Of a DNA stretch of 16,847 bases, positions 2,183-5,265 are shown in pieces (within the stretch, counting starts at the first letter, position 1; the number at the start of each line of letters is the position of its first letter). Both the position numbers and the translations under genes were made by a program. Under the pieces are notes generated by a model. That model saw nothing but the letters and a program-made list of their open reading frames with translations. It made no database searches and had not been told where the DNA came from. This DNA comes from Thermoflexales bacterium (GTDB lineage Bacteria; Chloroflexota; Anaerolineae; Fen-1058): assembly GCA_030834835.1 (NCBI GenBank), contig JAUQXD010000380.1:1-16847 (forward strand). The letters are read 5' to 3'.

Positions 2183-2887
2183 ATGAAGATCGCGGTCAAG
2201 CTGCACGGCATTTTGCGCGACTATCGACCGGCCGGCGTCAAGGTCGATCTGTTCGAGATCACCCTGAGCGAACCGGCGGTGGCGCGGCAGGCGGCTGAGT
2301 ACTTCGGCATTCCGCCCAAAAAAGTGCATGCGGCCTTCTTGAATAATGAGCCGGTCGATTTGAACGCGCCGCTGGCGGATGGCGATCATTTGCGGCTATT
2401 TCCGCCGGTCGTCGGCGGGTCCGATCGGGCAGTGGCGGCCCGCTGGCGAGTGTTTATCGCGGGCATCATGCAAGGCTCGCGTCGCGCCAACGATATCACC
2501 GCGCAGGACTATCGGCAGCAGATTGGCGCATGGCTGACGACGCATGTGCCCAGTGTCGAAGTGGTCGATCCATTTGAACTGCACCCGGACAGCGTCGGTT
2601 ACTCCGACGACGATGCGCGTCGCACCCTGATCGATCTGGCGCGGCTGGCGGGCCGCGTCGATGCGGTGGTGGCCTTTGTGCCGGAAGCCAGCATGGGCAC
2701 GGCGCTGGAGATGTGGGAAGCGTATCATCAGGGGCGCCCCGTCATCACCATTTCGCCGCTCGTGCACAACTGGGTCATCAAGGGCCTTTCGACGCGCGTC
2801 CTGGCCGATCTGGCCGAGTTTCGCGCTTTTGTAGAATCAGGCGAGTTTGAGCGCGTGCTGGCCGAATGGCCGGCCAAACCCGCCTGA
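2183..2887 (+). CDS. MoaD/ThiS-like ubiquitin-fold domain fused to nucleoside 2-deoxyribosyltransferase-like domain
   Basis: This 234-residue protein has two parts. Residues 1-79 read as a MoaD/ThiS ubiquitin-fold domain: MKIAVKLHGILRDYRP, then FLNNEPVDLNAPLADGDHLR, ending in PPVVGG. The diglycine at 78-79 corresponds to the C-terminal GG that sulfur carriers use for adenylation, but here the chain continues. Residues about 88-234 resemble the nucleoside 2-deoxyribosyltransferase-like fold: VFIAGIM (90-96), a DxxxxF-type segment near 129-131, the strand VDAVVAFVPEASMGTALEM (159-177) with E176 as the likely catalytic Glu, and RPVITISP. In the NDT family that Glu attacks the nucleoside C1'. The gene starts 5 bp after the previous one and ends 11 bp before the tRNA. 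Function as a sulfur carrier, a fused regulator or a base-exchange enzyme is undetermined. Confidence 0.85.
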   Translation: MKIAVKLHGILRDYRPAGVKVDLFEITLSEPAVARQAAEYFGIPPKKVHAAFLNNEPVDLNAPLADGDHLRLFPPVVGGSDRAVAARWRVFIAGIMQGSRRANDITAQDYRQQIGAWLTTHVPSVEVVDPFELHPDSVGYSDDDARRTLIDLARLAGRVDAVVAFVPEASMGTALEMWEAYHQGRPVITISPLVHNWVIKGLSTRVLADLAEFRAFVESGEFERVLAEWPAKPA

Positions 2888-3048
2888 TCTTTTATACGCC
2901 CCCGTAGCTCAATTGGACAGAGCAACGGACTTCAATGTGGAGCCTCATCAGGGAAACTTGTTGAGTGCATGTCACTATATGCGGGAATCCCCTTAGAGTC
3001 GCTGACACCCTGGCGGTAACAGTTCAGCGAATTGGGCAATCCGCAGGG

Positions 3049-3054
3049 AAGGAG
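3049..3054 (+). promoter_or_regulatory. Shine-Dalgarno that decides the CTG start of the endonuclease
   Basis: AAGGAG lies 5 nt upstream of CTG at 3060. There is no in-frame ATG, GTG or TTG between the stop at 3003 and the TTG at 3120, so this strong site supports initiation at CTG. Confidence 0.75.
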
Positions 3055-3059
3055 AAAGA

Positions 3060-3524
3060 CTGAACAAGCATCATACCAAGCTCAAAGGCGACATCGGCCT
3101 GAGTGCGATCATTAAGGATTTGACTATCAAAGGGTACTTCGTTTCTATCCCTGTTAGTGAAAATGCGCCCTTTGATCTCATCGCCAGCGATGATCACACG
3201 AACTACCGCGTTCAGGTGAAATCTCGGTCTGTATACCGGGGCGCGGTTGAAATCCAGTTCCGGACTTCCTGGGCCGATCGACACGGTACGCACTACACTC
3301 GATATGCCGGTGCTGACTTTGATGTGCTGGCCATCTACGTGCTCAATGCTGATCGATGCCTGTACTTTAAGCCGAAGGGTGAGCTGAGTGTCACCATTCG
3401 ACTAGAAGAACCTCTGAACAACCAGTCATCAGGGGTGCGAGTTTGGAGTGAGTTTCGGTCTTTTCCACCCTCAGAGACTATACGTGACACACCTAACGGC
3501 ACACTGCTCACGGTGAAGATATAG
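3060..3524 (+). CDS. Intron-encoded PD-(D/E)XK homing endonuclease (I-Ssp6803I-like)
   Basis: This 154-residue protein would cut intron-free copies of the tRNA gene and so spread the intron. It resembles the group I intron endonuclease I-Ssp6803I of the Synechocystis tRNA-fMet intron (about 150 residues). Shared segments are HHTKLKGDIGL near the start, APFDLIA, YRVQVKSR, EIQFRTSW and LNNQSS. Candidate active-site residues are D11, D39, Q52 and K54, matching the E-D-QxK set I recall for I-Ssp6803I. Starting at CTG 3060 keeps the helix that bears D11; the later TTG at 3120 would remove it. The last codons pass through P6', P7, P3' and P8, and the TAG stop lies in the 3' strand of P7. Composition looks more AT-rich than the neighbours, consistent with transfer. 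Confidence 0.88.
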   Translation: MNKHHTKLKGDIGLSAIIKDLTIKGYFVSIPVSENAPFDLIASDDHTNYRVQVKSRSVYRGAVEIQFRTSWADRHGTHYTRYAGADFDVLAIYVLNADRCLYFKPKGELSVTIRLEEPLNNQSSGVRVWSEFRSFPPSETIRDTPNGTLLTVKI

Positions 3525-3654
3525 TCCAGCCAGCAAGCCGCCTGTCGGCGGTGGTCACGGAAACGTGATGCTGGATGCTAATCCGCAGGTTGTGGGTTCA
3601 AGTCCCGCCGGGGGCGCCTGTTTATCACCGCGCGTCAAGCGTGTGGAGGAGAGC

Positions 3655-5265
3655 ATGTCGCATCGAAGGCTGCGCGTGACGCTGTTGTTTATGCTGGCGA
3701 TCGGGCTGGCCGCTTTACCGATCGGTCAGTGGCCGGCGCGTTCGGCGCAAGCGCAATCCGAATTGTTGATCAATCCCGGTTTTGAAGAACCGTTCACTTC
3801 GCAGGGTGGCAGCGTTTTCGTGGCCAATGGCTGGCAAGCCTGGTATCTGTCGCCCGACGGCGTAACGTATCCCACGCGCTGCCCGGAACCGACCGAGCCA
3901 ACCTGCAAGCCGTACGGCATCCCCAGTTATCGCGTCAGCCAGCCGCAGGATCAGCGGATGCCGCCCCATGCCCGATCGGGCAATTCCCAGCAATGGGGAG
4001 CCAGTTACGTCGTTTACGTCGCCGGCCTGTATCAGACCGTCGGCAACATCACGCCTGGCACGCGGCTGCGCTTCTCGGTGTTCACGCAGGCCTTCAATTG
4101 CAGCGACGATCGCGGCTGCTTTGGCGGCGTGGGCGAGGTGGGCAAGTCTTACGAGCCGGGCTTCAATGCGCTGCGCGTGGGCATCGATCCCACCGGCGGC
4201 ACCAACGCCTTCAGTACCAGTATCGTGTGGTCGGCCTTCGCCAATCCGCTCGACGCCTTTGTGCAGCAATCGGTTGAAGCGGTGGCCCAGAGTGCCAGCG
4301 TCACCGTGTTTATCTCGTCCGCACCCGATTACCCCGAAAAGCACCTGGACATCTATGTGGACGATGCCAGTCTGATCGCCGTAGGTCAGGGCGAAGTGCC
4401 AACCGCCGTACCGGCGACACCGGGCACACCCGCGCCCACGGCCACTCCCAGCACGCCGCAACCGACATCGACTATTCCGCCGAATACCGGCACGTACACC
4501 GTTCAATCGGGCGACACGCTATCCGCCATTGCGCAGACTTACAACCTCACGCTCGATCAACTGCTGGCGCTCAACCCCGGTTTGACGCGAGAGAGCATCC
4601 TGCAAGTTGGACAGGTGATCAACATCGGCGGCACGCCACAACCGGCAACGCCGACCGCCGCTCCGACGGCAACGCCCGAACCGACGACCGCCCTGACGAC
4701 GACTGTGGCTCCGACCACGACGCTGGTGACTTCGACACCCGTGTCTACTGACACGCCCGCGCCCAATGGCACGCCCGCATTGGCCAATTCCGGCTTATGC
4801 TTAAGCGCCTTTGACGATGTGGATGGCAGCGGCACGCGTGAGCCGGCCGAGATGGCCGTGATCGCCGGCGCACGCTTCGAGGTGGTCGATGTTCAGAATC
4901 AGGCCGTCGCGTCTTACACCAGCGATGGCGTCGAAAACCTGCACTGCCTGGGCAATCTACCCGATGGCCGTTACACCATCAGCATCACGCCGCCCGCCGG
5001 ACACACGGCCACGACCGATGTCAAGTGGTCGGTATCGCTGTTGTCTGGCACCAGCGTCAACGTCAACTTTGGCAGCCGTGTCGCGCCCATCGCTACCGCC
5101 ACACCCGCCGCTGAGGCGGCACCCACCGCCCAGGCCGCAGCCGCTGCGACACCCGCTCCGGCCGCGCGCAGCACGGGCGTGCCGCTGGGCCTGTTGGTCG
5201 GCGGCGCCCTGGTCCTGCTGGCTATGGCCGCCCTCGCCTTTGCCGTCAGCTCACGCCGTCGCTAA
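3655..5265 (+). CDS. Secreted, membrane-anchored LysM and SdrD-B-like domain protein
   Basis: The 536-residue protein begins with a signal peptide (about 1-34, hydrophobic core LLFMLAIGLAALPIG, cleavage near AQAQ). The next ~205 residues (ELLINPGFEEPF onward) look like a carbohydrate-binding jelly-roll type domain. A Pro/Thr-rich linker leads to one LysM domain (about 280-325, TYTVQSGDTLSAIAQTYN). A second Thr/Pro linker follows, then an SdrD-B-like Cna-B fold (about 380-478: FDDVDGSGTREP, LPDGRYTISITPP). An Ala/Pro linker and a final transmembrane helix with an SSRRR tail (about 508-536) close the protein. It should sit outside the membrane and bind glycan. GGAGGA at 3645-3650 supports the ATG at 3655; the longer reading frame overlaps the tRNA exon. 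It is the first gene of a three-gene run. Confidence 0.9.
   Translation: MSHRRLRVTLLFMLAIGLAALPIGQWPARSAQAQSELLINPGFEEPFTSQGGSVFVANGWQAWYLSPDGVTYPTRCPEPTEPTCKPYGIPSYRVSQPQDQRMPPHARSGNSQQWGASYVVYVAGLYQTVGNITPGTRLRFSVFTQAFNCSDDRGCFGGVGEVGKSYEPGFNALRVGIDPTGGTNAFSTSIVWSAFANPLDAFVQQSVEAVAQSASVTVFISSAPDYPEKHLDIYVDDASLIAVGQGEVPTAVPATPGTPAPTATPSTPQPTSTIPPNTGTYTVQSGDTLSAIAQTYNLTLDQLLALNPGLTRESILQVGQVINIGGTPQPATPTAAPTATPEPTTALTTTVAPTTTLVTSTPVSTDTPAPNGTPALANSGLCLSAFDDVDGSGTREPAEMAVIAGARFEVVDVQNQAVASYTSDGVENLHCLGNLPDGRYTISITPPAGHTATTDVKWSVSLLSGTSVNVNFGSRVAPIATATPAAEAAPTAQAAAAATPAPAARSTGVPLGLLVGGALVLLAMAALAFAVSSRRR

Follow-up and report, generated by a model that had tools for sequence, protein, structure and literature searches.

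A probable group I intron with its own endonuclease in the tRNA-Arg(UCU) gene of an Anaerolineae bacterium, and an endonuclease lineage found with this tRNA gene

The window analysed here, a stretch of 16,847 nucleotides from a Thermoflexales bacterium (Chloroflexota; Anaerolineae), carries a tRNA-Arg(UCU) gene in two pieces, between which there very probably lies a group I intron with its own endonuclease (Table 1). Joining the exons (2898-2932 and 3578-3616) gave a cloverleaf with a TCT anticodon broken between U34 and C35; reading by eye showed an A27-C43 mismatch as the terminal pair of the anticodon stem, and one G-U pair in the T stem. The joined exons were 95% and 93% identical to the uninterrupted tRNA genes of genomes G002 and G004, respectively. 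As stated in the initial annotation, the 5' exon ends in U (U34) and the intron in G (G3577), and the expectation that tRNA finders would overlook the gene was borne out by ARAGORN, which called no tRNA in the window. An intact tRNA-Arg(UCU) elsewhere, which that annotation had named as evidence against its reading, was not found, the TCT anticodon being absent among the 34 tRNAs of the genome (33 typed and one not; genome 90.7% complete, 7% contamination). The arginine anticodons present among these tRNAs were CCG, GCG and TCG, and the split gene is the only tRNA-Arg(UCU) gene detected in the genome. Since tRNA finders miss the interrupted gene, it would be scored as lost; AGA codons are normally read by tRNA-Arg(UCU) alone, so translation would hinge on splicing. 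Elsewhere in the tRNA set, one tRNA-Arg has a GCG anticodon (L016; G000:C345), with the usual ACG absent among the 34 tRNAs, and a tRNA-like gene of unassigned type (L034, G000:C452:10500-10590) has a four-base anticodon (tgca) according to ARAGORN.

Table 1. Features at the interrupted tRNA-Arg(UCU) locus (positions in the window).
Feature	Positions	Strand	Evidence
Gene upstream of the tRNA, syntenic in intron-less genomes	2183..2887	+	Synteny comparison
5' exon of tRNA-Arg(UCU), last base U34	2898..2932	+	Intron-less syntenic genes (L066, L067) run directly into the 3' exon
P1, exon 2928-2932 with guide 2940-2944	2928..2944	+	Strands in aligned copies
Predicted group I intron, 645 nt, terminal G (G3577)	2933..3577	+	Rfam Intron_gpI (E 1.4e-4); covariation; 22 aligned copies
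P3, 5' strand (partner 3484-3489)	2970..2975	+	132/132 pair cells standard, both-sided changes, 22 copies
P4, 5' strand (partner 3041-3045)	2980..2984	+	105/105 pair cells, 21/22 copies
Shine-Dalgarno-like AAGGAG and start codon; predicted partner ~3456-3467, where the frame nears its 3' end (P6/P6a)	3049..3062	+	Duplex energy
Predicted PD-(D/E)XK homing endonuclease, 154 aa, probable CTG start, TAG stop inside the P7 3' strand	3060..3524	+	Pfam PF11645; PDB 2ost; alignment
P7, 5' strand, guanosine site (partner 3521-3526)	3476..3481	+	128/132 pair cells, 22 copies
P3, 3' strand	3484..3489	+	Same P3 count
P8, 3490-3493 with 3512-3515	3490..3515	+	88/88 pair cells, 22 copies
P9, 3530-3533 with 3571-3574, enclosing P9.2 hairpin 3555-3568	3530..3574	+	85.5% and 98.9% of cells paired, 19 sequences
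3' exon of tRNA-Arg(UCU), first base C35	3578..3616	+	Joined-exon cloverleaf; intron-less syntenic genes
Gene downstream of the tRNA, syntenic in intron-less genomes	3655..5265	+	Synteny comparison

The Rfam Intron_gpI model (RF00028) matched positions 2923-3540 with 26.5 bits, giving E values of 1.4e-4 in a search of 821 bases and 2.6e-4 over the whole genome, and the four remaining Rfam matches in the 821-base search had E values of at least 1.1. The check proposed in the initial annotation therefore returned a significant match, but nothing was reported at the gathering threshold of the model because 26.5 bits lies below its score of 50, which is a library cut-off and not a biological feature; our guess is that the reading frame inserted in the intron lowers the score. 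Intron_gpI matches were also obtained in five of 14 control genomes at E values up to 1, two of them above the cut-off. The pairings of the window itself were complete, as annotated (P3 6/6, P4 5/5, P7 6/6 and P8 4/4). For comparison across copies, 22 introns with both exons present were aligned, covering the window, L098 from Chloroflexota, 15 copies from Gammaproteobacteria (two titled only “Proteobacteria” and “endosymbiont”), L118 from Acidobacteriota, L151, L155 and L156 from Bacillales and L192 from a viral contig, and the helix strands were located by script patterns. The P4 count covers 21 of the copies, the script not having picked up the 3' strand in L118, and P9 was paired in 87 of 88 cells. 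The aligned copies had a 5' exon ending in CTT and a 3' exon starting with CTAA, together with the U34.G pair and the terminal G. In the window, P1 consists of U34.G2940, U33-A2941, C32-G2942, an A31xC2943 mismatch and G30-C2944, and four of the five P1 positions were paired in 21 of the 22 rows with position 31 mismatched in each, the remaining row (L192) reflecting a script offset of one base. The guide read GGAGCC in all 22 copies and differed in the three nearest Anaerolineae relatives (GGAGCG in L237 and L241, GGAGTG in L244).

Covariation was assessed on 19 related 3' domains in a MAFFT alignment (18 Arg(UCU) copies and the Lys(UUU) intron L223), using a structure written by hand. Standard pairs made up 95.6% of the pair cells, both-sided changes were present in 12 of the 19 pairs, and the covariation score was 0.433 compared with a shuffle mean of 0.137 (none of 500 shuffles as high) and values of at most 0.085 for slid partners. 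The structure of the window thus exceeds chance. An identical insertion was found in G001, a genome of the same genus, with record JAGOBP010000061.1 showing the same locus, and G002 and G004, from another genus of the same family, had an unbroken tRNA gene at the position syntenic to the window intron. Gene order was kept around the intron-less tRNA in both, with 1743-2177 and 2183-2887 upstream and 3655-5265 downstream, so that their comparison with the window amounts to an empty-site comparison, and the intron-less allele that the initial annotation had suggested looking for in relatives is present. G003 belongs to a third genus of the family; searches there recovered no full-length intact tRNA gene (best E 2.6e-10) and no intron. 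These data bear on whether the locus might be a pseudogene or an assembly artefact, that is, broken tRNA halves with a chance structure between them. The assembly is of metagenome type, with 1452 contigs and 7% contamination, which would favour such a reading; the recurrence of the structure in JAGOBP010000061.1, the unbroken genes that two other genomes have at this locus and the covariation make it highly improbable. The comparisons instead agree with the initial claim of a tRNA-Arg(UCU) gene split after U34 by a group I intron, and the intron is real and probably functional.

A reading frame at 3060-3524, absent from the initial annotation, passes through P7, P3 and P8 and so overlaps the ribozyme core. 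Its product matched the Pfam PF11645 profile with 97.5 bits against a cut-off of 26.1 (E 8.4e-28) and PDB entry 2ost (E 4.2e-5), which we take to be I-Ssp6803I of the Synechocystis tRNA-fMet intron; Bonocora and Shub reportedly tied I-Ssp6803I to this intron in 2001. Residues E34, P37, D39, Q52, V53 and K54 (motifs PFD and QVK), presumably catalytic, were invariant in 11 sequences. By these profile and alignment matches the protein is assigned to the PD-(D/E)XK homing endonucleases of the I-Ssp6803I family, and it is the likely means by which the intron would have been gained through DNA homing. A large protein search gave 10 significant hits out of 19 candidates (P0001-P0010), of which P0001, in a further record, is 93% identical to the window endonuclease. 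P0002-P0008 (compared at the protein level) start with M at the position of the window CTG. The C-terminal motif PPSETIR.[AT]P was common to the window and P0001-P0008; being encoded by P7, P3 and the first part of P8, it may owe its conservation to the RNA. At the predicted duplex over the start site, the energy was -20.6 kcal/mol in the window (41 of 1000 letter shuffles as low) and -25.1 kcal/mol in L098 (4 of 1000). Folding of the intron for splicing may thus hide the endonuclease start site, an effect that is weak in the window. A one-base difference separates the window from L098 at the 3' end of the frame, and, given the CTG start as well, the endonuclease may be in decay or expressed at a low level.

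The analysis was extended to the group I introns of Anaerolineae. At E values up to 1, Intron_gpI matched in 26 of 100 relatives, 11 of them above the cut-off, and a 3'-domain model gave matches in 60 of 396 genomes of the class. The 30 loci fetched, with host anticodons read from the joined loops, were in tRNA-Arg(UCU) (12, including the window and G001), Leu(UAA) (7), anticodon-CAU tRNAs (5), Val(UAC) (2), Lys(UUU) (2), Ser(UGA) (1) and probably Lys(CUU) (1), a count biased towards Arg, since 18 of the 19 copies used to train the model were Arg and the other was Lys. Hosts in the class other than tRNA-Arg(UCU) include Lys(UUU) (L243 and L248), Val(UAC) (L236 and L238), Ser(UGA) (L231) and, by our own reading, Asn(GUU) (L196, L199 and L206). 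Introns in tRNA-Arg(UCU) were also found in Gammaproteobacteria, Bacillales, one Acidobacteriota genome and a viral contig. The suggestion in the initial annotation that tRNA-Arg(UCU) was a new host does not hold, since an interrupted tRNA-Arg-TCT is already in print for Beggiatoaceae (PMC4853749) and 21 further copies were aligned here, with more in Anaerolineae.

As to coding content, the endonuclease frame in tRNA-Arg(UCU) introns of Anaerolineae outside the genus of the window was intact in L229, shortened in L230 and fragmentary in L232 and L233, which in the last three of these related introns suggests loss of the endonuclease; no comparable long frame was present in the other fetched tRNA-Arg(UCU) introns outside the genus. 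The Ser(UGA) intron L231 encodes its own PF11645 endonuclease, and the one Leu-intron protein scanned (L245) was HNH-like, under curated cut-offs. It is possible, though less likely than not, that the window intron is fixed, still splicing and no longer mobile, with a decaying endonuclease and a distribution that follows vertical descent in the genus; this explanation shares the identity of the element and denies its present mobility. The CTG start, the one-base difference near the frame end between two members of the genus and the relatives in the class that lack the frame or bear its remnants are in line with it, while residues of the catalytic region are kept, the frame is open over 154 codons and the 93% identical P0001 occurs in a further record. 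On balance, we lean slightly towards a window intron that is mobile today.

In the intron tree, the window grouped with L241, L237 and L244, from tRNA-Arg(UCU) of three other families (98/97), near the Lys, Val and Ser introns; on the 3' domain alone this close group was not starred, the smallest larger starred set being 12 rows (Arg, Lys, Val and others). Leu(UAA) introns formed a separate branch (100/100, and 94/87 on the 3' domain alone). The trees rest on 151 and 90 columns, with Leu(UAA) introns represented by those of the class; the 5' domains of the first were trimmed unevenly (48 to 84 nt), and the tree was repeated on the 3' domain alone. An alternative origin would be a shift from another tRNA with a 5' exon ending in CUU, by reverse splicing and not by endonuclease-driven homing. 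In its favour, related introns of the class interrupt tRNA-Lys(UUU), Val(UAC), Ser(UGA) and Leu(UAA) after U34, as in the window, and have guides close to that of the window. Against this, the nearest introns lie in tRNA-Arg(UCU) of other Anaerolineae families, Leu(UAA) introns branch apart, and both trees need four host changes for five host states, the least possible number, which together render a host shift unlikely. The earlier proposal of a site-shift from tRNA-Leu(UAA) in particular was not upheld for the Leu(UAA) introns of this class.

The relatives of the endonuclease were then considered together with their genomic context. Loci came from a genome collection (best 80 of 87), a viral collection (18) and 301 genomes surveyed within the phylum, of which 16 contained PF11645, and those with a tblastn score of at least 75 bits and known context were tallied. 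Among the resulting 98 loci (window included), 95 were associated with tRNA-Arg(UCU): 72 were free-standing at no more than 620 nt from an intact gene, 19 were intronic in it and four lay beside an ORF-less intron in it, with three elsewhere. From the 30 loci of the phylum survey, 20 with tblastn scores below 75 bits, eight without a tblastn match and the window duplicate L078 were set aside; L173 and L177, both adjoining tRNA-Arg(UCU), were excluded for short frames, and the database proteins P0001-P0010, which come without genomic context, stand outside the 98. L079 and L162 encode identical proteins on contigs of equal length, so one contig was probably counted twice, and L142, whose contig ends in the 3' exon, is among the 19 intronic loci and outside the 22 aligned copies. 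In some phage contigs (for example L180, L182 and L183) tRNA-Arg(UCU) is one of many genes in a tRNA array, so that nearness to it says less there. All loci found in Actinomycetota and Nostocales were free-standing endonucleases, and Gammaproteobacteria had both forms within Pro-Arg-His-Lys tRNA arrays (L113 and L150 free, the rest intronic). Because most relatives are free-standing beside an intact gene, the endonuclease lineage appears tied to tRNA-Arg(UCU) independently of the intron. By ARAGORN, a tRNA lay within 1000 nt in 16 of the 20 weaker PF11645 loci from the phylum, including Met(CAU), Thr, Lys, Tyr, Val and one Arg(UCU); targeting of tRNA genes may thus be habitual in the family.

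Several loci showed further arrangements. In Bacillales (L151, L155 and L156), as judged by eye, the tRNA-Arg(UCU) intron keeps an apparent end of the endonuclease frame and a full endonuclease gene lies just downstream. In the viral contigs L178 (about 2927-3522), L184, L185 and L190, the endonuclease is followed directly by an intact tRNA-Arg(UCU), both between the halves of another tRNA, and an Rfam search at E values up to 0.05 found no group I core between these halves; L181 has a similar left end, there preceded by the 5' half of a different tRNA. Behind the free-standing endonuclease of L145 (Planctomycetota, after 2097), partial tRNA 3' halves were seen by eye to recur, a trace that insertion beside the target might leave, and a similar repeat was seen behind the tRNA of L109.

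In the endonuclease tree, the intronic forms of Chloroflexota type (the window, L098 and eight database proteins called intronic from their C-termini alone) made up one branch (SH-aLRT 99) and those of Gammaproteobacteria a separate one (16 rows, support 82), with free-standing forms between. A single clade of intronic endonucleases was weakly rejected (p 0.0445 with 27 rows, 0.101 without the long-branched L118), so that repeated embedding of the endonuclease in introns is put forward as a suggestion. We tentatively propose, at a little under even confidence, that the lineage became a specialist for the anticodon loop of tRNA-Arg(UCU) either before it joined an intron or independently of that step, and that it entered introns there more than once, separately in Chloroflexota and Gammaproteobacteria. 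For the window, the proposed sequence is that the transcript would splice itself with guanosine and restore the anticodon, and that the endonuclease would cut intron-less tRNA-Arg(UCU) genes at the anticodon loop, repair of the cut then copying the intron in. The folded intron would hide the endonuclease start by pairing, in which case splicing and translation exclude each other. If the proposal is true, genomes hold every stage (an intact gene, a free endonuclease beside it, the endonuclease inside an intron, and a remnant inside with a separate copy), and the “pre-adapted endonuclease” route to mobile introns would have an example in cells that spans phyla. The endonuclease loci form a natural series for that model, and the sequence of steps by which a mobile intron arises becomes testable with endonucleases from each state. 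The wider pattern, a lineage tied to one tRNA in free and intronic form across phyla, therefore matters more than the single gene.

Compared with known systems, the intron is of a known type and its host tRNA has already been noted in Beggiatoaceae; the unusual part is an endonuclease lineage that follows tRNA-Arg(UCU). The I-Ssp6803I system of Synechocystis is, like the window, a tRNA group I intron with a related PD-(D/E)XK homing endonuclease, and it differs in host tRNA and insertion site; the passage of the frame through the ribozyme core is described here for the window alone. The tRNA-Leu(UAA) introns, including those of cyanobacteria, share with the window the insertion after U34 and the 5' exon end CUU, whereas those of the class belong to a separate RNA branch. 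Among titles and abstracts searched, with thin coverage of subscription journals, none linked this endonuclease lineage to tRNA-Arg(UCU). Interrupted tRNA-Arg-TCT genes with putative group I introns are described for “Ca. Maribeggiatoa” (citing MacGregor et al. 2013a) and “Ca. Thiomargarita nelsonii” (PMC4853749), the host tRNA being the same as in the window; that paper states that the structure or type of the tRNA introns was not determined there, and the Thiomargarita locus, at ~324 bp computed from its coordinates, is too short for an endonuclease of the window type. The tRNA-Arg(CCU) introns of Alphaproteobacteria, for which self-splicing has been demonstrated in Bartonella, also interrupt an arginine tRNA missed by finders, in a different isoacceptor (PMC7717549), and the tRNAscan-SE 2.0 paper names fMet and Ile2 tRNAs as missed because of introns (PMC8450103). 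Claimed “group I introns” with lengths of 22-49 nt from cyanobacterial tRNAs (PMC5733544) were set aside as too short, in our judgement, for a group I core. The closest parallel in process is the “collaborative homing” of phages, in which a free-standing endonuclease and an intron share one target, reported in a 2014 review that places the phage introns observed until then in protein-coding genes (PMC3984707). Both cases have one lineage outside and inside introns at one target gene; here, in contrast to the phages, the targets are tRNA genes, mostly in cellular genomes across phyla, and cleavage is predicted from sequence alone.
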